From Paenibacillus peoriae (GTDB lineage: Bacteria; Bacillota; Bacilli; Paenibacillales; Paenibacillaceae), in contig NZ_CP092831.1 of NCBI RefSeq assembly GCF_022531965.1, forward strand, positions 5,551,001 through 5,615,000: a DNA stretch of 64,000 nt, written 5' to 3'. The notes under the pieces are model-generated. The model worked only from the letters and a program-made list of their open reading frames with translations, was not told the DNA's origin and ran no database searches. This document shows, in pieces, positions 20,799-36,100 of this stretch. Positions within the stretch are counted from its first letter, which is position 1. Every line of letters starts with the position of its first letter. The position numbers and the translations under genes were made by a program.

Positions 20799-22970
20799 AT
20801 GAGCAAGCTTATGGATATGCCAAAAGAAAGCGGCTATGCGGCTTGGCTGCATTACAGCCGCAATAGTAAGGTACAAAAGCTGCCCGCTTGGTGCAGGGTC
20901 ATCGTGGTCCATGAGACAGATGAAGTGCTTCAATCGGCTGCGAGTGAGCTTCAGCACGGATTGACCTCCATGTTTGGACAGCAGCCGAAAATCAGCACCG
21001 TTCCTGTAAATGCGCCATTCATTGCGCTGGGTACGTTCCCAACGCATCCTTTGGTCGCAGAACGATTCAGTGCGACGGAACAGGCAGAAGTGGGCGCGGA
21101 AGGCTACCGAATTCGCGGGCTAGAGATGCCAGATCCGGCATATTCAGCTTTGCACAGTAACGATGAGTTCAAAGGACCGTACGTTATAGTCGCGGGGCAG
21201 ACCTCCAAAGGCGTATTGTATGGAGTCTTTCATCTGCTGCGCTACCTTCAAGGAGGATTAGACGGCAAACTGAAACCCGCCGCCGAGGAATCATTGCACG
21301 CTCCCCTTCTAGACCTATTGTCTAATCCAGCTAATCCCATCCGTATGATCAACCACTGGGATAACATGGATGGTAGTATTGAACGCGGGTATGCGGGTGG
21401 GTCCATTTTCTACGACAATAATGCCTTTACTGCAAATATGGAGCGCCTGCGAGACTATGCCCGTCTACTCGCTTCTGTAGGCATTCAAGCGCTATCCATT
21501 AACAATGTGAATGTCCATCAGGTAGAAACCGAGCTGATTACAGATAAATTCCTACCGGATGTGGCCAAAGTAGCTGCGGTATTCCGCGCCTATGGCATAC
21601 AGATCTACTTGAGCATTAACTATGCCAGTCCTATTCAGCTCGGCGGGTTAACCACAGCCGATCCCTTGGAACCAGCTGTAGCTGAATGGTGGCAGACCAA
21701 AGCCCAGGAAGTTTACGCCGCCGTTCCTGATCTGGGTGGTTTTGTGGTCAAAGCCGATTCCGAAAATCGGCCCGGACCGTTCAGCTACGGGCGCCATCAC
21801 GCCGATGGAGCCAATATGCTGGCAGATGCGTTGCAGCCCTATGGCGGACGTGTGATTTGGCGCTGCTTTGTCTACAACTGCAAGCAGGACTGGCGCGATC
21901 GCAAGACGGATCGAGCTCGCGCAGCCTTTGACCATTTTAAACCACTGGATGGGCTGTTTCGGGAAAATGTCATTTTACAGATCAAAAATGGTCCCATGGA
22001 TTTTCAGGTGCGGGAGCCTGTCTCCCCCCTGTTCGGTGGGCTGGAAGCCACTCAGGTGCTACTGGAATTTCAGATTGCGCAAGAGTACACCGGCCAACAG
22101 AAGCATCTATGTTACCTTGTTCCGCAATGGAAGGAAGTATTGGATTTTGATACCTACGCCAAAGGAAAAGGCTCCACCATCAAGCGTATTGTGAGTGGCG
22201 CCCTGCATTCTCCCAAACCTACCAACTATGGAATAGCCGCTGTATCCAATATTGGTGCAGACACCAATTGGACCGGACATTTGCTCGCCCAGTCCAATCT
22301 TTATGGCTATGGTCGACTGGCATGGGACCCGGAGCTGTCTGCGGAGGAAATCGCTGATGAGTGGGTTCGGCTGACGTTTGGCAGACAAGGGAATAGCGAA
22401 GGCGACACAGATTTAATTTCTACCATTAAGCAGATGCTGCTCAATTCATGGAATATCTACGAATCCTACACCGCCCCTCTGGGGGTCGGCTGGATGGTCA
22501 GTCCCGATCACCACTATGGGCCGGATGTAGACGGGTACGAATATTCCAAGTGGGGAACCTACCATTTTGCTGATTGCCGAGGGATTGGAGTAGATCGCAC
22601 GACCACAACCGGGACCGGCTATGCAGGACAATATTTTGCTCCCCATGCCGATATCTACGAATCTACGGACACCTGTCCGGATGAGCTGCTCTTATTCTTT
22701 CACCATGTCCCTTATACACACTTGCTCCACTCCGGCCAAACTGTCATACAGCACATTTATGATACCCATTTTGAAGGTGCAGAACGTGCGGCCCATCTCC
22801 GAGACACATGGGTTAGTCTACGAGGGCAGCTGAATGATACCATGTATGAGCAGGTGCTGGAGCGGCTGGAGCATCAGGCTGAGCATGCCAAAGAATGGCG
22901 GGATCGGATCAATACGTATTTCTACCGTAAAAGCGGCATTGCCGACCAGAAGGATCGCCCTATTTATTAA
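20799..22970 (+). CDS. aguA: GH67 alpha-glucuronidase
   Basis: A 723-residue intracellular enzyme that removes 4-O-methyl-glucuronic acid from aldouronic acids derived from xylan. GH67 hallmarks include [16 protein letters not shown], the preceding [12 protein letters not shown] and the catalytic-site region [20 protein letters not shown] with conserved acidic residues. AAAAGGAGG lies before the ATG. With the GH52 xylosidase it completes cytoplasmic breakdown of glucuronoxylan fragments. Its last 141 coding bases are repeated almost exactly 9.85 kb downstream (32678-32833), marking the edge of the accessory island. Confidence 0.95.
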
Positions 22971-22985
22971 GCAGGCTGTCTCGGC
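22830..22985 (+). repeat. Left copy of a 156-bp direct repeat flanking the island
   Basis: The last 141 bases of the GH67 gene plus 15 bases past its stop are repeated at 32678-32833. I count two differences in 156 positions (GGCTGAG against GGCAGAG and CGCCCT against CGCTCT). The two copies are 9848 bases apart in the same orientation. Confidence 0.93.
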
Positions 22986-23377: not shown

Positions 23378-23407
23378 AGTTGTATTTTTTAATATCACTG
23401 ACACTTT
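23378..23407 (+). promoter_or_regulatory. Island promoter P1: AGTTGT-N18-CACTTT
   Basis: AGTTGT (23378-23383), 18 bases, CACTTT (23402-23407), 34 bases before the GTG start of the subtilisin. It is one of five copies of this element in the island and differs only in the first base of the left hexamer. Recognition by the island's SigO/RsoA pair is inferred. Confidence 0.6.
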
Positions 23408-23441
23408 CTTAATTAACAAAAGAGAATGGATGTGAGATAGA

Positions 23442-24365
23442 GTGAAAATACAATCGATAGGATTACCAAACTATAATATTAAAACTGCTACAAACAAAGA
23501 AAACAAGGGTTTAGAAATAATTCATGCTGAACAGTTTTGGAAGCGGAATATTTTTGGATCTAATGTTGTCATTGCTGTGTTGGATACCGGAATAGATATG
23601 AAGCACGAAGATCTACAAAACAACATCATTGGTGGGAGAAATTTCACTTCAAACTATGACAATGATCCGCATAACTATCAGGATGGCAATGGACATGGGA
23701 CTCATGTTGCAGGAATTATTGCAGCTAACAATAAAAAAGTTAACATCGGAGTTGCCCCACGAGCCAGCATTCTCATTTTAAAAACGTTAACCAATGACGG
23801 AGATGGAGATATTAATAATTTAATTGAGGCTATTTACTACGCAATATTATGGAGAGGGCCCAACGGAGAAAGAGTTAACATTATGGCAATGTCTTTGGGT
23901 ACCATAAAGGACAATCCTCTTCTGCATGATGCTATCCGCTATGCAGTGGAACACGGCTTGTCTATAGTCGCTGCTTCCGGAAATGATGGAAACGGGGAGA
24001 GTGATCGGGAATATAGATATCCCGGTGCTTACAATGAAGTGATAGAAGTTGGGTCTATCGGAGCAACAAAATTAATTTCAAAATTTTCTAACAAAAACGA
24101 GCAACTTGACATTGTCGCTCCGGGTGAAGACATATATTCCACATTCCTTAATAATAAATATGCCTCTTTTAGTGGTACATCTATGGCAGTCCCTTTCGTT
24201 GCTGGTGCATTAGCATTGATCATCGAAGAAGGCAGAATCCTATTCAAAAGGGATCTTACTGAACCAGAAATTTATGCTCAATTAATTAAAAGCAGTTCGC
24301 TGCTCTTTGGAAATCCAGCTATAGAAGGAAACGGAATGCTGAATTTGTTAAAGAGCTTTGGATAA
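23442..24365 (+). CDS. Intracellular-type subtilisin (peptidase S8)
   Basis: A 307-residue serine protease with no signal peptide and no cysteines. The catalytic triad is D48 (VIAVLDTGID), H85 (GHGTHVAG) and S247 (SFSGTSMAVPF), with oxyanion N181. Size and order match Bacillus intracellular serine protease, whose short N-terminal LIPY propeptide seems replaced by IGLPNY at residues 6-11. The region after the serine reads MAVPF instead of the usual MAAPH. The GTG start has a weak SD. Promoter P1 links it to the island regulon. It might process the cysteine-rich peptide or degrade misfolded protein; neither is shown. Confidence 0.88.
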   Translation: MKIQSIGLPNYNIKTATNKENKGLEIIHAEQFWKRNIFGSNVVIAVLDTGIDMKHEDLQNNIIGGRNFTSNYDNDPHNYQDGNGHGTHVAGIIAANNKKVNIGVAPRASILILKTLTNDGDGDINNLIEAIYYAILWRGPNGERVNIMAMSLGTIKDNPLLHDAIRYAVEHGLSIVAASGNDGNGESDREYRYPGAYNEVIEVGSIGATKLISKFSNKNEQLDIVAPGEDIYSTFLNNKYASFSGTSMAVPFVAGALALIIEEGRILFKRDLTEPEIYAQLIKSSSLLFGNPAIEGNGMLNLLKSFG

Positions 24366-24410
24366 GTTGATCTAAAATTAAAAACTTATCGCCTTGCTAA
24401 AAAAAAACGA

Positions 24411-24474
24411 CTCATGACCTGATAGTACGAAATATAGCTATAATTACAATCATACAAAAGAATCAGTTCATGAG
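24411..24474. repeat. Long hairpin after the subtilisin gene
   Basis: CTCATGACCTGAT (24411-24423) pairs with ATCAGTTCATGAG (24462-24474), 12 of 13 positions, around a 38-base AT-rich loop. It begins about 45 bases past the subtilisin stop, after a run of A. It may be a terminator or a remnant of a small element. The stretch from here to 24710 shows nothing else. Confidence 0.4.
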
Positions 24475-24710
24475 TTGCTCTCATCACCGCAAAATTTCTG
24501 TAAAATGGTCTTATGAAAGTATGTTTCTCACAACTACTCTAAGTCTGTAATTACTCGATTTTCAAAAGCCTCTAGGCATGTTTTAAGTTCAAGTTATACA
24601 CTCCGGACGTAAGACGTTAGAACACTAGTGGCTTCCAAGAAAAAGCGTCATTACTTATTAGGAACTCCCTCCCTCAAGCAGTAGAACTCCAAGTAAAACT
24701 TATATATTCC

Positions 24711-25285
24711 TCTCTAGTTTTGAAATGCTCCAAATACACGAGTTCCTCTTTCAAAATGCTGTGAAACGATTCAACGCAGACATTGTCATAACAATTCCTT
24801 TTTCGGCTCATGCTGCCTTTCATGCCGTAATCCACAAGCTTTTTCTGGTGTTCCTGAGCCGCATACTGACTGTCCGATCCGAATGGTGCAGAACTTCACT
24901 GGCAGGACGGTGAGCCTGGTAAGCACGCTCCAATGCTGAAAGGACCGGTTCCTTTGTCATCAAGATCCCATTTGGAAGCCCACAACCTGTCGGGTATACA
25001 GGATCCATGACGCTGGGCAGGTAAAACCATTCTTCATCCATACTTCCCTTGGCGTTTGAGCAGAAAACTGCTGGTTCAGGTGTTTTTCATGGACGGGTAT
25101 CTGATATTTGGAATTCGTTGTCGCTTGGTATTCTTCACGATCCTAGATTGAAGGAACAGCTGCCTAATTTTCTGCTCGACCTGACTTCTTCGCTTCTTTC
25201 GCTCACTGCTCTTTTGGCACCTCGAATGAATTTGGTTTTATTCTCGCTTCTCGTCTCTCGGTGTCCACTTTTTAGTCTAACATCA
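24711..25285 (-). mobile_element. Degraded IS3-family insertion sequence
   Basis: Reading the minus strand across several frameshifts recovers orfB of an IS3-family element: ATTNSKYQIPVHEKHLNQQF, then MDEEWFYLPSVMD, then EPVLSALERAYQAHRPASEV, then LHHSDR, QYAAQEHQKKLVDYGMKGSM and FHSILKEELVYLEHFKT. An orfB N-terminal scrap (ERKKRRSQVEQKIRQLFLQS) lies upstream, and GTGTCCACTTTTTAGTCTAA near 25260 may be the terminal repeat. Much of orfA and orfB is deleted, so the element is dead. Confidence 0.8.
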
Positions 25286-25351
25286 ATATGGGCATTTCAT
25301 GTATGCAGCTTTAATAAAAGGGGGAGGAAAACGATAAACTTATAAATATTG

Positions 25352-25381
25352 GGTTGTTATATCTAGTACATAACTCACTTT
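25352..25381 (+). promoter_or_regulatory. Island promoter P2: GGTTGT-N18-CACTTT
   Basis: GGTTGT (25352-25357), exactly 18 bases, CACTTT (25376-25381), 40 bases before the start of the cysteine-rich peptide gene. The same element precedes sigO-rsoA and three other units of the island. Confidence 0.68.
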
Positions 25382-25421
25382 TATAGTTGTAACAAATTAA
25401 ATCGAAAGGAGAAATTAAATT

Positions 25422-25601
25422 ATGAATGAGAAGAAAACTACTCAGACAAATGCTTCCCAGCAAGAGCAAGTGCAGATTCAAGCGGAAATTGGCTGTTACC
25501 AACTGCCTAAATGCTGTGGCTTCGGACCTGACTGCCCAGCAACATATCGCGGTGTATTTAAGAACAATCCGGTCTTTTATTCATGTGGCTGTTCACCTTA
25601 A
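25422..25601 (+). CDS. Cysteine-rich 59-residue peptide
   Basis: A short gene with a strong ribosome site (AAAGGAG nine bases before ATG). The polar first 23 residues (MNEKKTTQTNASQQEQVQIQ then AEI) contain no cysteine and look leader-like. The remaining 36 carry six cysteines: C25, C31, C32, C38, C55 and C57, ending YSCGCSP. There is no Sec signal or hydrophobic segment. It could be a disulphide-rich or modified peptide, or a small metal-binding protein; I see no RiPP maturation enzyme nearby. The next gene, 70 bases downstream, encodes a PLA2-like protein, and both share promoter P2. The gene is real by SD, promoter and codon structure; its function is unknown. Confidence 0.75.
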   Translation: MNEKKTTQTNASQQEQVQIQAEIGCYQLPKCCGFGPDCPATYRGVFKNNPVFYSCGCSP

Positions 25602-25671
25602 TGATTAGCTTTTGATAAGATTTGTGCGTTATCCGCCTTTATATTTCAATTTTAGAGGAGTGTATATAGTT

Positions 25672-26394
25672 ATGATGAATATAATTAATGGTCGACCTAT
25701 GACAATAATCGAAACAACCGATTTTTTAACTGAGCTTACAAATAGCCCTGATTATAAGAAAATTTCAAAATTAATTGATACAGAGTATTCGAAATTTTCT
25801 CTTGAAAACCTAAAAATCAAAGCTACTTTTGTGAGTGACTTATATACAACAAACAAAAAATTAAATGTAGGAAAAATGATTTATTTCATTAGTGAAGATA
25901 AGAAACTTGTATTTCATGCCTTTGGTTATAATGAAATTGACAGTACAGAAGTTACTTACTCCCTTGGTGTAGATATTTTAGAGGGGAACGAATTGAAACA
26001 ATTAGATGTGAAAAAAGGAAGAACTCACGTCACTAATTCACCTTATGATGGAGTTGATCTAGACGTAGAGGTGGAAACTCCACCTTTTCATGACGAGACA
26101 TACACCCCCGGAGAAACTAACAATAAAATTACTACTGCTTGGGATCCTACGGAGTTTTGTGCTCCTGGTGGTTATCAGCATTGTGGTAAAAACTGTGGAT
26201 ACAATATGGCTAGAGGTGGGGGCGCCCCCATTAACGAATTAGATGAATGTTGCGTAGCACACGATCGTTGCTGGGCAAATTTCGGCGAAGGTAACTGCGA
26301 GTGCGATGGGATTCTCGAGAACTGCGCTCGCAGATATAGAACTCAATATTATATTATAGCTAATGCCATTATCATTTATTTCGAAGGATGCTAA
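25672..26394 (+). CDS. Phospholipase-A2-like protein with novel N-terminal domain
   Basis: A 240-residue protein. Residues 1-155 form a cysteine-free domain I do not recognise. Residues about 160-240 are cysteine-rich (ten Cys) with the PLA2 signature: the loop QHCGKNCGYN through GGAPINELD, then DECCVAHDRCW containing the catalytic His and its partner Asp, then CECDGILENC. This resembles the calcium loop and active-site helix of secreted PLA2, but no signal peptide is visible. The frame extends up to a TTG at 25612; AGAGGAG 11 bases before the ATG at 25672 favours that start. It is probably cotranscribed with the cysteine-rich peptide. Lipase activity is inferred from motif only. Confidence 0.75.
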   Translation: MMNIINGRPMTIIETTDFLTELTNSPDYKKISKLIDTEYSKFSLENLKIKATFVSDLYTTNKKLNVGKMIYFISEDKKLVFHAFGYNEIDSTEVTYSLGVDILEGNELKQLDVKKGRTHVTNSPYDGVDLDVEVETPPFHDETYTPGETNNKITTAWDPTEFCAPGGYQHCGKNCGYNMARGGGAPINELDECCVAHDRCWANFGEGNCECDGILENCARRYRTQYYIIANAIIIYFEGC

Positions 26395-26442
26395 TAGATA
26401 ATACTTAAAATGTATAAATATCTCCACTTCTTAATATAGTAC

Positions 26443-26511
26443 TATCCCTTTCAAGTAGACACTCAAAAAAACCTTATGTCACATGAGGAAAGAGTAAACT
26501 TGAAGGGGATA
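26443..26511. repeat. Fourteen-base inverted repeat after the PLA2-like gene
   Basis: TATCCCTTTCAAGT (26443-26456) pairs with ACTTGAAGGGGATA (26498-26511), 13 of 14 plus one G-U, around a 41-base loop. It starts 48 bases past the stop. It could be a terminator without T-run or ends of a small mobile element. Confidence 0.4.
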
Positions 26512-26700
26512 TTTCCATATAGAAAGGGTAATTTCTTTTTCAGAAGAAGCAGAACAAGAAACTGTTCTATAGGCCTCTACTATTTGAAAACGATAATATT
26601 AAGACGCCTTATGATAAATATGTTTGTACTGATTAGGAACATGTAGCCTTAAGCAGAATAAGAGCAGGTACCTTTCCTTACTATTTATTTTGAGCCTCAG

Positions 26701-26840
26701 CTGATCTTTGCAATTTTTTAAAAAGATTTCCTTACAGCTTGTCGCGAGACTCCCTGTTCTCTCGCTACTTGAACAATCCGTTTTTCTTTACCTTGAACAA
26801 TTATCAGTCGGAGGACTTAAAAACTAACTTTTTTACTCAT
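26701..26840 (-). mobile_element. Transposase orfA-like remnant
   Basis: The minus strand begins MSKKVSF, hits a stop, then continues KRIVQVAREQGVSRQAVRK, a helix-turn-helix like that of small transposase subunits, followed by another stop. It is a fragment only and the family is uncertain. The stretch 26512-26700 shows nothing recognisable. Confidence 0.45.
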
Positions 26841-26880
26841 TGGACACACCTCAACTAAGTTTGATTGTGTTCTCCATTCC

Positions 26881-27190
26881 CCGTGTCTAAACGGAAACCA
26901 CCGGCAGAGAAACGTGGGAAGTTTGCGGTAGGAAGTCAATTCAAGAGCGCGTCAAAGAAGTATCCTCTTGGGAGCCTTTCGTTCTGGAACTGGATTCGGT
27001 AAACCCAGTCGTGGGGAAAGCAAAAACTGTTTAGCTACCTTCATCAAACTGAAGATGCGTCTGTAAACCGCGATAAAAGTGCTGGAGCATGTTCTTCCTC
27101 ATCAACCACCTCCCCGAAAATGTCTGGACTGGAAAATCACTCACGAACGATTTACAGAGGAGCTGTTGCACTGGCTCTACAATCCGTCAT
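26881..27190 (+). mobile_element. Degraded IS30-family transposase
   Basis: The plus strand carries GRETWEVCGRKSIQERVKEV and ELDSV-NPVVGKAKTV (compare ELDTVVSSRGKSK of IS30 transposases), then, after a gap, PPRKCLDWKITHERFTEELL, matching the family's C-terminal RPRKCLGWKTPYE block. Stops, frameshifts and an internal deletion make it inactive. From 27191 to the ECF promoter nothing else is recognisable. Confidence 0.65.
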
Positions 27191-27418
27191 TTAATCATTG
27201 TTATCTTTCTTCACTCTTACCGTTTAAGGAATTCAAATTGAGCTATTTCGGTTGTGCTATGATGAAGGAGTTAATAAATTGAGATTCATCTGCACGAATG
27301 TATTTTGGTAACTATATTTCACATGATCAGACCATAAGCTGAATATTTACTTCTTTGGGACCGCCACAATAATCGGCATGTAAATAAATTTAAAATTCAT
27401 CAGTAAATTATTATTTAT

Positions 27419-27445
27419 TGCAACTTTTTCCTGTCTTCATTCGTG
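27419..27445 (+). promoter_or_regulatory. Possible ECF-type autoregulatory promoter
   Basis: TGCAAC (27419-27424), 17 bases, CGTG (27442-27445) resembles the ECF promoter pattern TGAAAC-N16/17-CGTC, 22 bases before the sigma gene start. ECF operons commonly read themselves. Confidence 0.4.
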
Positions 27446-27467
27446 GTTGTAGTGAAAGGAGGAAAGA

Positions 27468-27974
27468 ATGAACCTAGAAACTCTTTACTCCAGCTACTTT
27501 AACGACTTGTATAGATACCTGCTTTCCCTCTCCTGTAATCATTTCGTTGCAGAGGAACTAGTCCAAGAAACTTTCTTTAGAGCCTTTTTACATCTTGAGG
27601 ATAATGAAATTGAAAATATTAAGGCTTGGTTGTTTAAAGTTGGATACCATGCATTTATTGATTTCACACGACGAAAAAACAAAAAAAATGCACTTATTGA
27701 AGAAATTAAGGGACTAGAATTACTGGATAACAATACTCCGGAAAATCAGTTCATAGAGCGTGATCAATTAAGCCAGTTAATACAATCAATTCATACTCTA
27801 CCCGAAAAAGAATCCCAAGCCATCCTTTTATGTGATTTACATCAATTCAAAATGCACGAAGCAGCTGAAGTGCTGGGGTTAAATCTTAACACTTTAAAAA
27901 GTCATATTTATCGTGGGAGGAAAAAGTTAAAAACGATTCTTGAAAAGAGGGGCATACTACATGAAGAAGGATAA
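27468..27974 (+). CDS. ECF sigma factor (SigM-like)
   Basis: A 168-residue ECF (sigma-70 group 4) factor. Region 2 contains LYRYLLSLSCNHFVAEELVQ and ETFFRAF with the DNA-melting helix; region 4 contains HQFKMHEAAEVLGLNLNTLK and SHIYRGRKKLK. AAAGGAGG precedes the ATG. The following genes encode a Sigma_reg-type anti-sigma and a small membrane protein, the same order as sigM-yhdL-yhdK in B. subtilis, which responds to cell-envelope stress. It is a separate sigma system from the SigO/RsoA pair 2 kb downstream. Confidence 0.9.
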   Translation: MNLETLYSSYFNDLYRYLLSLSCNHFVAEELVQETFFRAFLHLEDNEIENIKAWLFKVGYHAFIDFTRRKNKKNALIEEIKGLELLDNNTPENQFIERDQLSQLIQSIHTLPEKESQAILLCDLHQFKMHEAAEVLGLNLNTLKSHIYRGRKKLKTILEKRGILHEEG

Positions 27975-29037
27975 CGATAACGAACAATTTCTCGATAAAA
28001 AAAGTAATAATAGTAATTTAACATCTAAAGAAGATCAAGAGGCGACTAATAATGAATACAATGAGTTGTTTAAAAAAGCTAATTTAGATTTCGGGACCAC
28101 TTTACACTTTGAAGAAAAAGCTTCAAAAGGAATTATTAAATTAGCAAAATACCAAGCAAAGATAAGTACAATCCTCATTGTTCTAACCATTTTACTTTTA
28201 ATTGTACCTGTTCTAACACTTTGTTCCTATTTATATTACGGAACAGAGAACCGAGCTAACGACTTGTTAGACACCACTAGGAATTTAATCTACGTAACTG
28301 AACCTAATACAATGTTAGAAGAAGGGTTTGATGCTAGAATCGGTTTTTTTTCTATGGACGCGAATTTTAACACTTTAAAACGTGTTGGGAAGCAAAGTCT
28401 TAATTCTGAGGCAATCAAAGTGCATTACACAATGAAACAATTTTCTGCCGTGGAACGGCAATCTAACACAAGTATACCTGTATCTGAGTCAAATAAGAAT
28501 CATTTCATTTTCCCAAGTAACAACCTGAATCTTGATAAAAATAAGGAGTGGGAGGTTTTAAACGGTTTGCCTTCTGGGTCTGTCGCCGAATTGTACATTT
28601 CTTTCGATGATTTGTATTCTCCCCAAGAAGTGGAACATAAGCTCCCCAAAAGTATTGATACTCTGTGGCTTGCAGTAAACTCAGGAGTGGAGAACTCACA
28701 AAATAGTGAACAAATAATTCCTTTGGGGTACCCTACGCATTCTGATGCCAATTTATTTTCTCCGTTTTTCGAGGCTGAGGTTGCTAAACAAGGAATTGAA
28801 CCTATATTTCTTAAAATTGTTGAACAGTTGGCTCAGCGACAAAAGCTAATATCTACTTTTCCATACTACCAGAATACATCTTTCTCTAAACGTTTGGATT
28901 ATATAAAGAAAAATGGAATCCTCACCTATGGAGTCGTCGTTACTGGGCCATCTGAAGAACTAAAAAAACTTAAAAGTAATAAAATGGTGCGCACAATAAA
29001 AGTTGAGGAGGTAGAGTTATGGAATTGGCATTCTTAA
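27961..29037 (+). CDS. Membrane anti-sigma factor (YhdL-like, Sigma_reg_N/C)
   Basis: A 358-residue single-pass membrane protein. A polar cytoplasmic N-terminus (about 1-65) leads to LFKKANLDFGTTLHFEEKAS, typical of the sigma-regulator N domain, then one membrane segment (about 68-90, ILIVLTILLLIVPVLTLCSY) and a large outer domain with VAELYISFDDLYSPQEVEHK of the Sigma_reg_C family. The frame opens earlier, but GAGGGG eight bases before the ATG at 27961 sets the start, overlapping the sigma gene by 14 bases. It should hold the ECF sigma factor inactive at the membrane. Confidence 0.85.
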   Translation: MKKDNDNEQFLDKKSNNSNLTSKEDQEATNNEYNELFKKANLDFGTTLHFEEKASKGIIKLAKYQAKISTILIVLTILLLIVPVLTLCSYLYYGTENRANDLLDTTRNLIYVTEPNTMLEEGFDARIGFFSMDANFNTLKRVGKQSLNSEAIKVHYTMKQFSAVERQSNTSIPVSESNKNHFIFPSNNLNLDKNKEWEVLNGLPSGSVAELYISFDDLYSPQEVEHKLPKSIDTLWLAVNSGVENSQNSEQIIPLGYPTHSDANLFSPFFEAEVAKQGIEPIFLKIVEQLAQRQKLISTFPYYQNTSFSKRLDYIKKNGILTYGVVVTGPSEELKKLKSNKMVRTIKVEEVELWNWHS

Positions 29038-29324
29038 AAAATAAAAAGAGAACCCTTTTACACCCCATAATAGGAATGATATCTTTCTTGTGCGGTATTT
29101 TTTCATTAGTTGAATTGAATATTAACTATTTATTTCTCTCTTCTTTTTTTCTTCCTCAAGCACTATATAGCATACCAGTACTAGGAATTTTTTTGGGAAT
29201 GGTAGCACTATTTACAAGGCGATCTAAAATGTATGCATGGTGGGGGATTGGACTGAATATTTTTGTACTCCTCTTCTCTTTCGTGATATTAATACTCTCT
29301 TGGTCAATTAATCCTAAGCCATAA
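29019..29324 (+). CDS. Small YhdK-like membrane protein
   Basis: A 101-residue protein with three hydrophobic segments (LLHPIIGMISFLCGIFSLV, PQALYSIPVLGIFLGMVALF and FVLLFSFVILILSW). GAGGAGG precedes the ATG, and the gene overlaps the anti-sigma gene by 19 bases. In B. subtilis YhdK acts with YhdL to restrain SigM, and the position here suggests the same role. Confidence 0.7.
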   Translation: MELAFLKNKKRTLLHPIIGMISFLCGIFSLVELNINYLFLSSFFLPQALYSIPVLGIFLGMVALFTRRSKMYAWWGIGLNIFVLLFSFVILILSWSINPKP

Positions 29325-29391
29325 TACGAAAGATTTGATATATACATCGCACTATTTACTAACTTAATTCGCATTCAAACAAAACCAAATA

Positions 29392-29422
29392 ACCAGTCGC
29401 CGATAGATTCCAGGCGACTGGT
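29392..29422. terminator. Hairpin between convergent operons
   Basis: ACCAGTCGCC and its exact complement enclose an 11-base loop between the ECF operon and the sigO-rsoA operon. There is no real T-run, so it may be a weak bidirectional terminator. Confidence 0.5.
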
Positions 29423-29484
29423 CGCTTAAATTGCAATATGTTTTGATATCCCACTCAAGACATTCCCGGCTTACAGCACCAGAC

Positions 29485-29730
29485 TTAATTATCTGTCTCT
29501 TCATTTTTTTTATTTACAAATTCCCAAAAACCAGGCACTGATTTCAAGTCATATCTATAGATTGCCTCAATTAATTTTAAGCTTACTTCTTGTCTTAAGT
29601 CATTACGATCTTGAGGTTTTGTCTGTGTAAGAGATTTTTGAATTTTGGGATTGAATTTTTCAATAATAGTTGCTATTGCTCGTGCGTCTCTTTGTTGTGC
29701 TTTCTTAATTAGATTCATAAAAGAGTTCAC
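29485..29730 (-). CDS. rsoA: RsoA-like sigma co-factor (region 2 half of split sigma)
   Basis: An 81-residue helical protein resembling sigma-factor region 2 (LIKKAQQRDARAIATIIEKF, then DLRQEVSLKLIEAIYRYDL). In B. subtilis RsoA, about the same length, binds core RNA polymerase and partners SigO, which lacks this region. The frame opens at 29799 without an SD; GGGGAG seven bases before the in-frame GTG at 29730 supports the shorter form. It lies downstream of the sigO-like gene in the same operon, as in B. subtilis. Confidence 0.75.
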   Translation of the reverse strand: MNSFMNLIKKAQQRDARAIATIIEKFNPKIQKSLTQTKPQDRNDLRQEVSLKLIEAIYRYDLKSVPGFWEFVNKKNEETDN

Positions 29731-29861
29731 TGCTTCTCTCCCCTTCACATAACGAATTACTTGCTCTATTTTCCCGAGAGTATTGAGGATTGATGCCATT
29801 GATCATAACAGATTGGACTGTACTGTTCTTTTATATAATCCAGTACTATAATTAATCCACT

Positions 29862-30410
29862 TTACGCCAAAAAATCTCTAAGTTTTTTTAATGCCCTAGT
29901 TCTTGTTTTTGAAACGGCCTGCTGTGATACGTTATTATTTTTAGCAATTTCAGTATCCGAACAATTCATGACATATGAAGCACTCAAAATACTCTTTTCT
30001 TTTTCCGTTAATAAACTTATCGCTTTATGTAGCTTTGAACTCGTTACCACGTCTTCTATTTTAACTGTTCGCTTATCCTTCAAGAATTCATATTGTGTAC
30101 ATACATCCTTAAAAAGATTGTGTGAATCCTCTTCCGGTATTAACACGTTTCTTTTTCGGATTCTTCTTTGCTTCTTGTCAAAATCTATCGAAGCATAATG
30201 TATCAAAGATGATATATAGGTTGTAAAACGAAGTTCTAAAAAGAATTGTTTGAATTTTTCATCTAGTTCCTTATTATTAGCATCAGATGGAAACATAATA
30301 CTTTCTTTGAATAAAGCATAGTGCTCTGGGTCATTCAAAAACTCATTTATAATTTTTTTTCTTGAAAGAATGCTAACAATTTCAGTAAAATTTAGTATGT
30401 AAGAGTTCAT
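29862..30410 (-). CDS. sigO: SigO-like split sigma factor (YvrI family)
   Basis: A 182-residue protein. The N-terminal half (ILNFTEIVSILSRKKIINEF, LELRFTTYISSLIHYASIDF) matches the YvrI/SigO family. The C-terminal half is a clear sigma region 4: LTEKEKSILSASYVMNCSDT then EIAKNNNVSQQAVSKTRTRA. There is no region 2; this is supplied by the RsoA-like protein encoded next. AGGAGGG precedes the ATG, and promoter P3 lies 34 bases further up, suggesting autoregulation. B. subtilis SigO/RsoA drives oxdC and yvrJ under acid or envelope stress; here five island promoters look like targets and a yvrJ-type gene is among them. Confidence 0.82.
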   Translation of the reverse strand: MNSYILNFTEIVSILSRKKIINEFLNDPEHYALFKESIMFPSDANNKELDEKFKQFFLELRFTTYISSLIHYASIDFDKKQRRIRKRNVLIPEEDSHNLFKDVCTQYEFLKDKRTVKIEDVVTSSKLHKAISLLTEKEKSILSASYVMNCSDTEIAKNNNVSQQAVSKTRTRALKKLRDFLA

Positions 30411-30443
30411 AATTTCCCTCCTAAATAAACAGTATGTTTAATC

Positions 30444-30473
30444 AAAGTGATACAACTTGGCGAAACCACAACC
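30444..30473 (-). promoter_or_regulatory. Island promoter P3: GGTTGT-N18-CACTTT
   Basis: On the minus strand GGTTGT (30473-30468), 18 bases, CACTTT (30449-30444), then GATTAAACATA. It lies 34 bases before the sigO-like start, so the sigma factor probably reads its own gene. The sequence after CACTTT is nearly the same as in P4 (ATTAAACATA). Confidence 0.68.
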
Positions 30474-31268
30474 ATAAATGTCTAAAAAGATATTTTTTTA
30501 AAAAAATTGTTAAAAAACCTTGTGAAAGGCTTTAGTATCGAGATTATTTGTGAGAATTTGAATTCTAATCGTGCTATATTAATTAACTTGGACATTGTAT
30601 AATATTGGATTTTCTTATTTAAAACCTCTTATAACTAATCACTAAAAAATAATCTTGCCTGAATTAAAGAGTTATTGCTACGAAAACAAAACATTTACAT
30701 CGCGAAGTGATTACCGGAGTATTACGGCTCTGTATAAACTATTTCACTATGGGGAAGCTCAATGGAAAGTAGGAGAATTTTTTCGTATACTTTGTTGTGA
30801 TGCCTATTGTTACGATGATTGTTTATATTTATCAGCATGAGCCAGTATAGAGTGGGCAGTGTATCTCAGACCGAAACAACCGATTTTGAGGATCGACCAT
30901 GTCTCTAAACATGACTTGATTGACTTGAGTTGAAAATACGCCTTAATAAAACAAAAAAATCGTTACAAAACACCAACGACTGATTTTCGAAATTAATGTT
31001 ATGGTGAAGAAGACAGACTGGAAATGGTTCTGAAAAAAACCTTTTTCGCACACCCCCAATTAATAAAACGACGTAAAAAGTTTAGTTTTCTCTACATAAC
31101 TGGTAATATCGCAATTTAGGATTGAATGGGTATATATAAAAATTCATGATAAGAACACAGAAAAATAGAAATTTAAAAGCTTTGAATATTTATCACTTAA
31201 CTAAAAAACAAAACATTTGGTTCAGGTTTTGAATAAAATGTTTATGAGCGTTAGCTCTTTGAGAAATG
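30474..31268. other. AT-rich stretch without a supported gene
   Basis: About 800 bases. A 61-codon frame at 30655-30840 with six cysteines (FFRILCCDAYCYDDC near its end) has only a TTG start and no SD, and no island promoter precedes it. Two short A/T-flanked hairpins near 30520 and 31040 could be terminators. I see no other signal. Confidence 0.4.
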
Positions 31269-31302
31269 AAAAAAGCCGCTTCCTAAGAGGAAGCGGCTTT
31301 TC
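31269..31302. terminator. Strong bidirectional terminator
   Basis: AAAAGCCGCTTCC and GGAAGCGGCTTTT form a 13-base perfect stem with a short loop. T-runs follow on both strands. It isolates the small-protein gene at 31539 from the region upstream of sigO. Confidence 0.85.
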
Positions 31303-31538
31303 GCTATATGATTTAAGTTGAACTTACAAGTACTACTACTCAGTTAGATCATGCCCCTTTTCCTCCTTCCTAATACCGCTTAATTAAACCCTATAATTAG
31401 GGCAGGAGGCTCGGTGGTAATATTTTTAAAAGCAGCCGTCTCGCTTCCATAACACTATTATGCCCCATCCGTTTAATCTAAATTTTAAGAGTTCAACTCA
31501 TATAATTGTAATTCACGGTTTATCAAAGGAAAGGAGCA

Positions 31539-31766
31539 CTAATCCGTACAATGTTCAGGATTAAAGTTACAACCACAAATTGTGACACCTACTTTATCGT
31601 AGCACGCGGATTCAATTTTTTTAAGATGATAAGCATATTTCTCACATATCTCCTGGTAAAACAAAATATCACTAGGATTTTCAGTTTCCTCTATTTTTTT
31701 ACTTAGCTTTAATAGTTCAATTTTAAAATTATGATGTCTTGATCTCCAAGCGTGCAATTCTTCCAA
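31539..31766 (-). CDS. Small protein with cysteine-rich C-terminus
   Basis: A 75-residue protein of helical, charged character (FKIELLKLSKKIEETENPSD) ending in a cysteine cluster, SACYDKVGVTICGCNFNPEH then CTD; five Cys in total. GGAGG lies eight bases before the TTG at 31766, so I start there rather than at the TTG at 31781. Promoter P4 lies 32 bases upstream. The CxC-x-n-C pattern could bind metal or form disulphides. I recognise no family, and its place in the regulon is the only clue to function. Confidence 0.6.
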   Translation of the reverse strand: MEELHAWRSRHHNFKIELLKLSKKIEETENPSDILFYQEICEKYAYHLKKIESACYDKVGVTICGCNFNPEHCTD

Positions 31767-31798
31767 CAGGATCGCCTCCAAAATATTTTATGTTTAAT

Positions 31799-31828
31799 AA
31801 AGTGGGGCAGCGGACTGATAGAACAACC
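31799..31828 (-). promoter_or_regulatory. Island promoter P4: GGTTGT-N18-CACTTT
   Basis: On the minus strand GGTTGT (31828-31823), 18 bases, CACTTT (31804-31799), then ATTAAACATA. It drives the 75-residue protein gene. Its left hexamer is one arm of a palindrome whose other arm is the left hexamer of P5. Confidence 0.68.
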
Positions 31829-31856
31829 TAAAAAATAGAAACTATTTTTGGGTTGT
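31823..31856. repeat. Palindrome joining two divergent island promoters
   Basis: ACAACC-T-AAAAAATA and TATTTTT-G-GGTTGT form an inverted repeat of about 14 pairs around GAAAC. It resembles a terminator (TTTTT follows a few bases later), but both arms are the outer hexamers of P4 and P5. Its symmetry may thus reflect two back-to-back promoters. Confidence 0.6.
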
Positions 31857-31880
31857 ACTTTTTAAAACTACTATCACTTT
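31851..31880 (+). promoter_or_regulatory. Island promoter P5: GGTTGT-N18-CACTTT
   Basis: GGTTGT (31851-31856), 18 bases, CACTTT (31875-31880), then ACTTCTCAAACA. The tRNA-Cys begins 24 bases later, followed without a terminator by the glutaredoxin-like and yvrJ-like genes. All three are therefore probably in one transcript. Confidence 0.65.
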
Positions 31881-31904
31881 ACTTCTCAAACACCAATTAA
31901 GTTT

Positions 31905-31976
31905 GGGGGTATAGCCAAGAGGCTAAGGCAAAGGTCTGCAAAACCTTCATCCCCGGTTCAAATCCGGGTACCCCCT
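31905..31976 (+). tRNA. tRNA-Cys (anticodon GCA)
   Basis: A complete 72-nucleotide cloverleaf: acceptor GGGGGTA with TACCCCC, D arm with AGCCAAGAGGCTAAGG, anticodon stem AAGGT/ACCTT around CTGCAAA (anticodon GCA), variable TCATC and T arm CCCGG-TTCAAAT-CCGGG. The discriminator base is T and no CCA is encoded. It sits between promoter P5 and a glutaredoxin-like gene in an accessory island, an unusual place for a lone tRNA. Confidence 0.97.
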
Positions 31977-32007
31977 TGCTAATTTAATTCGATGGGAGAG
32001 AAAGGTA

Positions 32008-32241
32008 ATGTTAAATGAGGTACTTATCTACACAAAGTCAAATTGTAAATTTTGCCAAAAAATTAAGGAGTGGATGGGGGACAACAAGATCAATTTCACT
32101 GACATTGATATTACCAATATAAATGATCTCAAGTTACTTCGCGAAATTAAAGGCGTACCCTACACAATCATAAAGAGATCTGGCAAAGAAACAGTTATCT
32201 GCGGATTCAATCCAAACAAGCTTAGGGAGACGCTTCTATAA
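32008..32241 (+). CDS. Glutaredoxin-like thiol-redox protein
   Basis: A 77-residue thioredoxin-fold protein of NrdH/glutaredoxin size. It starts LNEVLIYTKSNCKFCQKIKE with the redox centre CKFC, and has the cis-proline motif GVPYTII and a C-terminal CGFNPNKLRE. GGGAGAGAAAGG precedes the ATG. It follows the tRNA-Cys by 31 bases and precedes yvrJ by 31 bases. It may reduce or exchange disulphides in the cysteine-rich products of the island; this is inference from context. Confidence 0.85.
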   Translation: MLNEVLIYTKSNCKFCQKIKEWMGDNKINFTDIDITNINDLKLLREIKGVPYTIIKRSGKETVICGFNPNKLRETLL

Positions 32242-32272: not shown

Positions 32273-32485
32273 ATGAGTGTAGAGGCAATGATTTCATTAA
32301 TTACAAATGTTGGATTTCCCGTTTCGCTATGTTTTATTCTTCTTTGGTACATTTTGAAGACTCTAGGAGAAAAATTAGATAAGTTAGACAACTCAATGAA
32401 TCAGCTTAATACTACGATTAAAAAGATTAGCCTGTTAAGAAACTCTAAAAATGAATTTGATTCAAAAAAAAATTCACTTATGTGA
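32273..32485 (+). CDS. yvrJ: YvrJ-family small membrane protein
   Basis: A 70-residue protein. It begins with a membrane segment preceded by the family hallmark NVGFPVSLCFILLWYILKTL, then an amphipathic tail LGEKLDKLDNSMNQLNTTIK. This pattern (GFP motif, one helix, LDKL repeat) is that of the YvrJ family. In B. subtilis yvrJ is a target of SigO/RsoA, so its presence on the same island as a SigO/RsoA pair supports the regulon reading. Molecular function is unknown. Confidence 0.75.
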   Translation: MSVEAMISLITNVGFPVSLCFILLWYILKTLGEKLDKLDNSMNQLNTTIKKISLLRNSKNEFDSKKNSLM

Positions 32486-32619: not shown

Positions 32620-32818
32620 TGTAAAACGTGGAAACTTCACTCGTCTCAAAGACATCTAGATCAGTTTGTATGAGCAACTGAATGATACCATGTATGAGCA
32701 GGTGCTGGAGCGGCTGGAGCATCAGGCAGAGCATGCCAAAGAATGGCGGGATCGGATCAATACGTATTTCTACCGTAAAAGCGGCATTGCCGACCAGAAG
32801 GATCGCTCTATTTATTAA
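32620..32818 (+). pseudogene. 3' fragment of a second GH67 alpha-glucuronidase copy
   Basis: The last 47 codons, from [20 protein letters not shown] to the stop, are nearly identical to aguA. Upstream the frame still aligns weakly (RLKDI-stop-ISLYEQ against [12 protein letters not shown]) but carries a TAG where aguA has Trp. This is therefore the tail of a diverged or dead second copy whose very end matches the intact gene, not a clean duplication. Confidence 0.75.
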
Positions 32819-32833
32819 GCAGGCTGTCTCGGC
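32678..32833 (+). repeat. Right copy of the 156-bp direct repeat
   Basis: It matches 22830-22985 at 154 of 156 positions in the same orientation. It forms the right edge of the accessory island, about 290 bases before the amylase gene. Confidence 0.93.
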
Positions 32834-33124: not shown

Positions 33125-36100
33125 TTGACCTTGTATCGAAGTCTATGGAAAAAAGGGTGTATGCTTCTACTAAGCCTTGTGCTGTCTCTGACCGCCTTCA
33201 TTGGCTCACCCTCTAATACGGCGAGCGCAGCGGTTGCAGATGATTTTCAAGCTTCCGTCATGGGACCGCTGGCGAAAATCAATGACTGGGGTTCCTTTAA
33301 AAAGCAGCTACAAACGTTGAAAAACAATGGCGTGTATGCCATCACTACCGACGTCTGGTGGGGCTATGTGGAGAGCGCAGGAGATAACCAGTTCGATTGG
33401 AGCTACTACAAGACCTATGCAAATGCCGTGAAAGAAGCGGGACTGAAGTGGGTTCCTATTATCTCTACGCATAAGTGTGGAGGAAATGTGGGAGATGACT
33501 GTAACATCCCACTGCCAAGCTGGCTGCCGAGCAAGGGCAGTGCAGATGAAATGCAATTCAAGGACGAAAGCGGCTATGCCAATAGTGAAGCCCTCTCCCC
33601 ATTGTGGAGCGGAACCGGTAAACAATATGACGAGCTGTATGCCTCATTCGCTGAAAACTTTGCCGGATATAAAAGTATCATTCCCAAAATTTATTTGAGC
33701 GGCGGTCCTTCTGGGGAATTGCGCTATCCGTCCTACTATCCAGCAGCAGGGTGGAGCTACCCGGGACGAGGCAAGTTCCAAGCTTATACTGAAACAGCCA
33801 AAAATGCATTCCGCACAGCTATGAATGACAAGTACGGATCATTGGACAAGATTAATGCTGCTTGGGGCACCAAGCTGAGCAGTCTTAGCCAAATCAATCC
33901 ACCGACCGATGGGGACGGATTTTACACGAACGGCGGATATAATTCCACATATGGAAAGGATTTTCTGTCGTGGTACCAAAGTGTACTTGAGAAGCATCTG
34001 GGCGTCATCGGAGCAGCGGCCCACAAAAACTTCGATTCTGTGTTTGGTGTCCGGATCGGGGCCAAAGTTTCCGGTCTGCACTGGCAAATGAACAATCCTG
34101 CTATGCCGCACAGCACAGAACAAGCAGGTGGATATTATGATTACAACCGTCTCATTCAGAAATTCAAGGATGCCGATCTAGACTTGACATTTACTTGCCT
34201 GGAGATGAGTGACAGTGGCACAGCACCGAATTATTCCTTGCCGTCCACCCTGGTTGATACCGTCTCCTCCATCGCGAATGCCAAGGGTGTTCGCCTGAAT
34301 GGTGAAAATGCACTCCCGACAGGCGGCAGCGGCTTCCAAAAAATCGAGGAGAAAATCACGAAGTTCGGTTATCACGGGTTTACGTTATTGCGCATCAACA
34401 ATCTCGTCAACAATGATGGCTCACCAACCGGTGAGTTGAGTGGATTCAAACAATATATCATCAGCAAAGCCAAGCCTGACAATAATGGCGGTACAGGCAA
34501 CAAAGTAACGATATACTACAAAAAAGGCTTTAACTCACCTTACATTCACTACCGTCCGGCTGGCGGAAGCTGGACTGCAGCGCCAGGTGTGAAAATGCAG
34601 GATGCCGAAATTAGCGGCTATGCTAAAATTACCGTCGATATCGGTTCTGCCTCCCAATTGGAAGCCGCTTTTAATGACGGCAATAACAACTGGGACAGCA
34701 ACAACACCAAAAACTACTCCTTCAGCACGGGCACTTCTACGTACACGCCCGGTAACAGCGGCAATGCGGGAACGATCACATCTGGCGCTCCAGCGGGTAC
34801 GATTCCCGGGGATGGCGGCGGTACAACTAACAAGGTAACGGTATACTACAAAAAAGGCTTTAACTCGCCTTATATTCACTACCGCCCAGCTAACGGAAAC
34901 TGGACTGCCGTACCCGGTGTGAAAATGCAGGATGCCGAGATTAGCGGCTATGCCAAAATTACCGTTGATATCGGTTCTGCCTCCCAATTGGAAGCTGCTT
35001 TTAATGACGGCAATAACAGTTGGGACAGCAATAACTCGAAGAACTACCTTTTCAGCACTGGAACTTCTACCTACACACCCGGCTTGAACGGGGCTGCAGG
35101 ATCTATCCGAACGGGGGCACCTTCGGGGGGCGTCCTCAGCGTAGGGGCTTCTACCTACGCAACCGACCTCAACGAAGTGGCAGGACCTATCCCAACAGAA
35201 AAACTTTCGGGTGTAACCTTAAACGTAAGCACTTCTACCTACACACCCAATGTTAACGGAGTTGAAGTAACTGCTCAAACGGAGGCGCCTTTAGGCGCCT
35301 TCACTCCTATAGATCCGGGTACCCTTTCCAAGCCAACTCCCCTCAACGTAGACTGGAGCGAACAAAGCATTTATTTTATCATGACAGACCGATTTAGCAA
35401 CGGAGATCCGTCCAACGATAACTACGGTGGCTTCAATTCCAACAACAGCGATCAACGCAAGTGGCATGGTGGCGATTTTCAAGGTATTATTAACAAACTC
35501 GACTACATTAAAAATATGGGGTTTACCGCGATCTGGATTACTCCGGTAACGATGCAAAAGAGTGAATACGCTTACCACGGCTATCATACGTATGATTTTT
35601 ATGCGGTAGACGGGCATCTCGGTACAATGGACAAGTTCAAAGAGCTGGTTGGTAAGGCACATGACAAAAATATCGCTGTGATGCTGGACGTCGTCGTGAA
35701 TCACACAGGTGATTTCCAACCGGGGAACGGCATCGCCAAAGCTCCTTTTGACAAAGCAGACTGGTATCATCACAATGGTGAAATTACAGGGGGGGACTAC
35801 AACTCCAACAACCAATGGAAAATTGAAAATGGTGATGTGGCAGGACTGGATGACCTAAATCATGAAAATCCCGCTACCGCAAACGAGCTTAAAAACTGGA
35901 TCAAATGGCTGCTGAATGAGACAGGCATCGACGGACTGCGGTTGGATACCGCCAAGCATGTACCGAAGGGTTTTCTAAAGGATTTTGACCAAGCCGCCAA
36001 TACCTTCACCATGGGTGAAATTTTCCATGGCGACCCTGCTTATGTGGGGGATTACACCCGGTATCTCGATGCCGCATTGGATTTTCCGATGTATTATACA

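Follow-up and report, generated by a model that had tools for sequence, protein, structure and literature searches.

We found that a 64,000-nucleotide stretch of the Paenibacillus peoriae genome (assembly GCF_022531965.1, contig NZ_CP092831.1, positions 5,551,001 to 5,615,000; hereafter the window) contains an island in which five copies of one promoter-like element, RGTTGT-N18-CACTTT, stand ahead of genes for a SigO/RsoA-like split sigma factor, a tRNA-Cys and several cysteine-rich products. On the comparisons below, the island is likely to be a mobile, self-activating effector cassette which brings its own tRNA-Cys and is read by SigO/RsoA. The narrower proposal, that the SigO/RsoA pair of the island reads the five elements, is very probably correct.

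The element matches the window exactly five times, where 0.03 matches are expected, and none of 100 dinucleotide shuffles reached five copies. The copies lie at 23378-23407 (plus strand, with the form AGTTGT-N18-CACTTT), 34 nt ahead of the GTG start at 23442 of an S8 protease gene; at 25352-25381 (plus strand), 40 nt ahead of the ATG at 25422 of a gene for a Cys-rich peptide, where it heads a unit that also contains a phospholipase A2-like (PLA2-like) gene; at 30444-30473 (minus strand), 33 nt ahead of the ATG of sigO, which would thus be autoregulated through its own upstream element; at 31799-31828 (minus strand), 32 nt ahead of the TTG at 31766 of a small gene that we call cysP2, or 17 nt for a longer open reading frame (ORF) that also starts with TTG; and at 31851-31880 (plus strand), 24 nt ahead of the tRNA-Cys. 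Thus, all five copies reported in the original prediction are exact matches, all point toward their genes at the claimed distance of 24-40 nt, and, as it also claimed, the rest of the window holds no further copy. With two mismatches allowed, the count is 16 versus 10.3 +/- 3.1 in shuffles, 6 of 100 of which reached at least 16, and the exact element alone is therefore informative. The complete host genome, a single contig of 5,839,239 bases, contains 16 copies of the relaxed form GTTGT-N18-CACTT versus 14 of the reversed control. Each of the 11 relaxed matches outside the island lacks the leading R, the final T or both (TGTTGT..CACTTT in two cases), and the strict element is therefore confined to the island; the recurrence at random positions of the genome that the original prediction had named as evidence against itself was not seen in these 5.84 Mb. 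On the plus strand, a simple consensus scan listed no sigma-70-like site from 30791 to 32099, and its total of 14 such sites is no more than in shuffles.

The same element recurs beside SigO genes of other Paenibacillaceae. SigO homologues were sought in 295 genomes of this family and matched at E <= 0.001 in 132, although the weak matches among these are probably ordinary sigma factors recognised through region 4. RGTTGT-N16-20-CACTTT is present in 17 of the best 30 SigO loci, including that of the window. In 20 wider loci (394 kb) representing the best SigO matches after the window, including the P. maysiensis copy of this island (L047), GGTTGT..CACTTT occurs 20 times with a spacer of 18, once with 17, and never with 13-16 or 19-23, compared to one match across all spacers for the reversed control. 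The Bacillaceae box is looser: GGTTGT-N18-TTCTTT occurs six times in 10 plasmid loci (plus once at spacer 17) and four times in 20 loci found by RsoA (plus twice at spacer 19), whereas GGTTGT..CACTTT with spacers of 13-23 occurs in these sets zero times and once, respectively. Two loci, L107 and L108, can be placed in the B. subtilis group by their gene order and by an RsoA score above the curated cut-off, which B. subtilis alone passed among 14 control genomes. In both, RGTTKA-N18/19-CAYTTA precedes oxdC (recognised by eye in the gene order), yvrJ and sigO; the oxdC, yvrJ and sigO operons are the three SigO-RsoA targets in B. subtilis given in a review (PMC8103513). Such loose matches are not rare, with one and three in the reversed control, an additional one at 5700 of L107 and a single one in L109. 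Compared with these B. subtilis-type sequences, the island elements have a similar geometry but differ in the last base of each hexamer, which is T in the island and A in those loci. Both the recurrence of one promoter with an 18-base spacer beside divergent Paenibacillaceae SigO genes and the related promoters of the B. subtilis-type loci strengthen the predicted reading by SigO/RsoA; the comparative evidence that the element is a SigO promoter is good, albeit short of proof.

The sigma factor itself is split, as predicted. The SigO-like region 4 subunit (29862-30410, minus strand, 182 amino acids) matches PF04545 (6e-8) and PF08281 (3e-7) and has no region 2 (PF04542) match, and the adjoining RsoA-like region 2 subunit (29485-29799, minus strand, 104 amino acids) matches HTH_16 (1.7e-9). 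The best two NCBIfam matches of the latter are PRK14082 (hypothetical protein; 3.4e-18, 65.2 bits, below the cut-off of 86) and RsoA, and an iterated profile groups it with RsoA of L107 and L108. PHROG families of unknown function match SigO, RsoA and the PLA2-like protein, and phage records gave no tblastn match to the SigO or PLA2-like proteins.

The gene directly behind the fifth element is a tRNA-Cys (31905-31976, plus strand; ARAGORN, Rfam RF00005 65.9 bits) with an intact cloverleaf, a GCA anticodon and U73 but without encoded CCA. The original prediction had overlooked this tRNA, the most unexpected of the targets, and had placed a YvrJ-family gene behind one of the copies; a YvrJ-like gene does belong to the unit of the fifth copy, but as its third gene, after tRNA-Cys and glutaredoxin. 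A tRNA-Cys also follows an exact spacer-18 element in P. maysiensis and in L051, another follows GGTTGC-N17-CACTTT in L050, and a decayed one follows GGTTGT-N18-CACTAT in L049. Two other tRNA-Cys genes were found in the host by pattern, both within large tRNA arrays. It is highly probable that the tRNA-Cys belongs to the SigO regulon in Paenibacillus; in other families such membership is probable, albeit with clearly less confidence.

The tRNA-Cys often accompanies the PLA2-like gene across loci. One set of 51 loci was selected by SigO or RsoA: the window, 20 of the best 30 Paenibacillaceae matches, 10 of the 25 plasmid records with SigO, and 20 of the RsoA places. The PLA2-like gene is present in 13 of them, and tRNA-Cys was found in 8 of these 13 versus 0 of the other 38 (Fisher 2e-6). 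The median stretch was 17.0 kb with the PLA2-like gene (the window aside) versus 19.5 kb without it, so the difference is not due to search space. Glutaredoxin was present in 12 of the 51 loci, 11 of which also contain the PLA2-like gene. A second set, 28 loci from GTDB species genomes, was chosen by the PLA2-like domain. With a clear SigO (14 of 28), tRNA-Cys is intact in eight (one being P. maysiensis again), decayed in two (L129 and L131) and absent from four; without a clear SigO, it is intact in 2 of 14 (the short contigs L132 and L134) and decayed in one (L143). Of 72,556 plasmid records searched, 25 have a SigO match and 14 a PLA2-like match; four of five plasmids taken from these 14 carry tRNA-Cys, including L193, which has no SigO in its stretch. 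Across the window and the first two sets (79 stretches, 1.42 Mb), ARAGORN found 18 tRNA-Cys, two tRNA-Ser and no other tRNA. Overall, tRNA-Cys is present in 21 distinct loci and decayed in three more, and the records with it belong to Paenibacillus, Geobacillus, Anoxybacillus, Bacillus, Peribacillus, Priestia, Mesobacillus, Sporosarcina, Metasolibacillus, Halobacillus, Salimicrobium and Macrococcus, with one labelled Sphingomonas. This last record, titled Sphingomonas sp. PsM26 (L146), carries a Bacillales-type cassette and is probably a contaminant contig.

The Bacillales cassettes contain SigO, RsoA and YvrJ together with glutaredoxin, S8 protease, the Cys-rich PLA2-like protein and often tRNA-Cys. 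For example, the B. subtilis plasmid pBS72 has a row of sigO, rsoA, tRNA-Cys, glutaredoxin, cysP2-like, amidase and YvrJ genes. A Bacillus arachidis plasmid (L196, 3900-4052) carries two tRNA-Cys genes in tandem, one normal and one strongly divergent. The relics in L131 (13071-13125) and L143 (9540-9594) match the tRNA profile from position 17 on; they have lost the 5' acceptor strand, along with some of the D arm, or retain these parts in unrecognisable form. In addition, a lasso-peptide cluster lies near the SigO cassette of a Halobacillus plasmid (L194, 9870-15000), and a YydF-type cluster for a ribosomally synthesized and post-translationally modified peptide lies near the PLA2-like gene of a Macrococcoides plasmid (L197, 2573-5864).

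Several observations weigh against parts of this reading. The match of the RsoA-like protein to NF041489 (5.9e-14) reaches 51.9 bits, well below the cut-off of 100. In the 295 genomes, GGTTGT-N18-CACTTTA occurs at 75 places versus 56 for the reversed control, and thus only the 36 copies within 5 kb of one of the 78 SigO places speak for a regulon; the other 39 are at background level and mean little. The tRNA-Cys of L050 has A instead of U as discriminator, and this copy may be decaying. Outside Paenibacillus, only 4 of 17 regions upstream of the tRNA score at p <= 0.01 singly versus mononucleotide shuffles (Fisher 9e-5) under a model trained on the remaining cassette genes of those loci, and the box learned by this model is T-rich, has a spacer of 17 and is unlike GGTTGT. 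Within the island, the S8 protease, a major product, contains no Cys at all, and the YvrJ-like protein scores 22.4 bits against PF12841, where the gathering cut-off is 29.5, so that the predicted family membership can be kept only as YvrJ/BhlA-like. Furthermore, the tRNA is dispensable, since many PLA2-like cassettes have none in the fetched stretch (L048, L069, L070, L114, L128, L130, L137, L139-L141, L149, L154 and L197) and three have a decayed copy. The Fisher values also overstate independence, because loci share descent and stretch lengths differ.

Genomic islands often integrate at tRNA genes, and the tRNA-Cys could therefore be a passenger, an integration scar or hitch-hiker with no role in a cassette that SigO/RsoA otherwise controls. 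The numerous cassettes without the tRNA, or with a decayed copy only, would fit this view. However, every one of the 21 distinct loci has a tRNA specific for Cys, this tRNA goes with the PLA2-like gene among SigO loci, and its neighbours differ between loci: it lies before the glutaredoxin gene, before the PLA2-like gene, between rsoA and amidase, or next to sigO. In the window, it lies within the island, with about 670 bp separating it from the right flanking repeat, and has no attachment-site pair: a second copy of its 3' 22 bases is absent from the window even with up to three mismatches allowed, and the longest other match to the tRNA in the genome does not exceed 19 bases. Thus, we regard a passenger tRNA as unlikely. 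More doubtful is the idea that the tRNA-Cys counters loss of host tRNA-Cys, e.g. when an anticodon nuclease attacks it, or supplies a peptide modification that depends on Cys-tRNA. By reasoning rather than from any tool result, a dedicated inducible tRNA would suit cells short of host tRNA, but the association with Cys-rich products offers a simpler reading, and no gene for a peptide-aminoacyl-tRNA ligase or LanB-like protein was found by annotated name in 15 plasmid stretches, in which many genes are hypothetical. Finally, it is very improbable that another regulator, such as the SigM-like extracytoplasmic function (ECF) sigma factor encoded at 27468-27974 of the same island, reads the elements: an ECF sigma/anti-sigma pair does lie within the island, and several plasmids have sigma or anti-sigma genes close to SigO, but the element also stands beside SigO in loci where the ECF protein of the window has no tblastn match at E 0.01 (L048-L051, L055, L056, L058, L059, L061 and L066; other ECF factors were not sought), and a related sequence stands at the SigO operons of the B. 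subtilis-type loci.

In the preferred scenario of a cassette read by SigO/RsoA, RNA polymerase with SigO and RsoA would recognise RGTTGT-N18-CACTTT and transcribe the sigO-rsoA operon, resulting in positive feedback, along with four further units: the S8 protease gene, the peptide and PLA2-like genes, cysP2, and the tRNA-Cys-glutaredoxin-YvrJ-like operon. Once switched on, the cassette would give a burst of Cys-rich product, while the private tRNA-Cys would raise Cys decoding capacity and glutaredoxin would keep or shuffle thiols. We infer these roles from the gene content, and we lean slightly toward a tRNA-Cys that serves to decode the Cys codons of the Cys-rich product. More speculatively, the S8 protease may mature this product, and the holin-like YvrJ protein may serve its release as an export or lysis protein.

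The genes of these units are as follows in the window. The S8 (subtilase) protease (23442-24365, plus strand, 307 amino acids) matches PF00082 (E 4e-55). The small peptide (25422-25601, plus strand, 59 amino acids, 6 Cys), recognised from its sequence, has no Pfam, NCBIfam, PHROG or PADLOC match. The product of 25672-26394 (plus strand, 240 amino acids, 10 Cys) consists of an N-terminal alpha/beta domain and a PLA2-like domain with CC..HD.C. We file it as putatively PLA2-like: its PF00068 match (E 8e-4, 20.3 bits) is below the gathering cut-off of 32.1, but its profile finds PLA2 in the PDB at 3.3e-9, and two alignments, of 12 and 17 sequences, conserve the catalytic motif without exception. 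Its AlphaFold2 model (pLDDT, predicted local distance difference test, 87.7) gave zero Foldseek matches at E <= 0.001. The cysP2 product (31539-31766, minus strand, 75 amino acids) is a small conserved protein with a C-terminal Cys cluster and no Pfam family, recognised by an alignment (A6) whose search found 22 such proteins; its TTG start is preceded by GGAGG and agrees with the starts of homologues, and a strong terminator-like hairpin of 15 pairs lies downstream on the minus strand (31270-31302). The glutaredoxin (32008-32241, plus strand, 77 amino acids, CxxC) matches PF00462 (4.5e-8, 33.6 bits, above the cut-off of 22.9). The YvrJ/BhlA-holin-like protein (32273-32485, plus strand, 70 amino acids) matches PF12841 (8.7e-5), PF10960 (1.1e-3, below cut-off) and the holin family PHROG 4898 (1.3e-4), and its homologues in L049-L051 are 66-68% identical. 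Cys counts are 10/240 in the PLA2-like protein, 3/77 in glutaredoxin, 6/59 in the peptide and 5/75 in cysP2, compared to 96 in 12,339 residues (0.78%) for ORFs of at least 300 amino acids outside the island. Besides the SigM-like sigma factor, the ECF region of the island (27468-29324) encodes an anti-sigma factor (Sigma_reg_N/C) and contains a small ORF. On plasmids L067, L069, L071 and L074, too, SigO has sigma factor or anti-sigma genes nearby; such genes are possibly an input to SigO. N-acetylmuramoyl-L-alanine amidase genes are found in or beside SigO or PLA2-like cassettes of L074, L076, L111, L124, L146 and L193, and in some cassettes the amidase adjoins YvrJ, with which it may form a possible lysis or release pair.

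The island is bordered by two copies of a 190-bp direct repeat (92%) lying 9.8 kb apart, at 22796-22985, which is the 3' end of the gene at the left border, and at 32644-32833 (both plus strand). All nine relatives examined (L199-L207, at least 83% identity) lack the island: the flanking gene joins the downstream region directly and a single repeat copy is present. In P. maysiensis, this site is occupied by the island. Repeats 300 nt (84%) and 72 nt long lie at 34487-35302, within a 1224-amino-acid ORF downstream of the island.

SigO/RsoA has been linked to acid stress. The island resembles the B. subtilis SigO-RsoA system (YvrI-YvrHa; oxdC-yvrL, yvrJ, sigO-rsoA) in its split sigma factor, its YvrJ-like target, its apparently autoregulated sigO unit and its promoter geometry. 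Unlike that system, it is located on an island, its targets are tRNA-Cys, glutaredoxin, protease and PLA2-like genes, and no oxdC-like gene was seen in it. As a comparison of gene neighbourhoods only, a dedicated sigma factor beside holin-like and effector-like genes also resembles the clostridial TcdR toxin loci with the TcdE holin; UviA/UviB is a further sigma/holin toxin-locus pair of this type in clostridia. A secretion role of the YvrJ-like protein, by likeness to TcdE/UviB, is putative and comes from the genes alone, and, in contrast to TcdR/UviA-type loci, the island has a two-subunit sigma factor, another effector type and its own tRNA. Compared to animal and plant secretory phospholipase A2, the PLA2-like protein is bacterial and has a long N-terminal domain and a Pfam score below cut-off.

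In summary, SigO/RsoA is the core of plasmid- and island-borne cassettes across many Bacillales genera, and the Paenibacillaceae promoter is nearly invariant, making the SigO regulon predictable from sequence. Two-subunit sigma/promoter pairs already serve AND gates (PMC10028694), and these cassettes offer many natural pairs of this kind. Whether mobile cassettes throughout the Bacillales use a dedicated two-subunit sigma factor to transcribe a private tRNA-Cys, a Cys-rich PLA2-like putative effector and glutaredoxin is, in our judgement, evenly balanced. If so, a tRNA that is under the mobile element's own sigma factor and tracks a Cys-rich product would make the cassette a carrier of its own translation supply: tRNA supply would be a regulated member of an alternative-sigma regulon, and the mobile element would adjust host translation to the amino acids that its own product requires.

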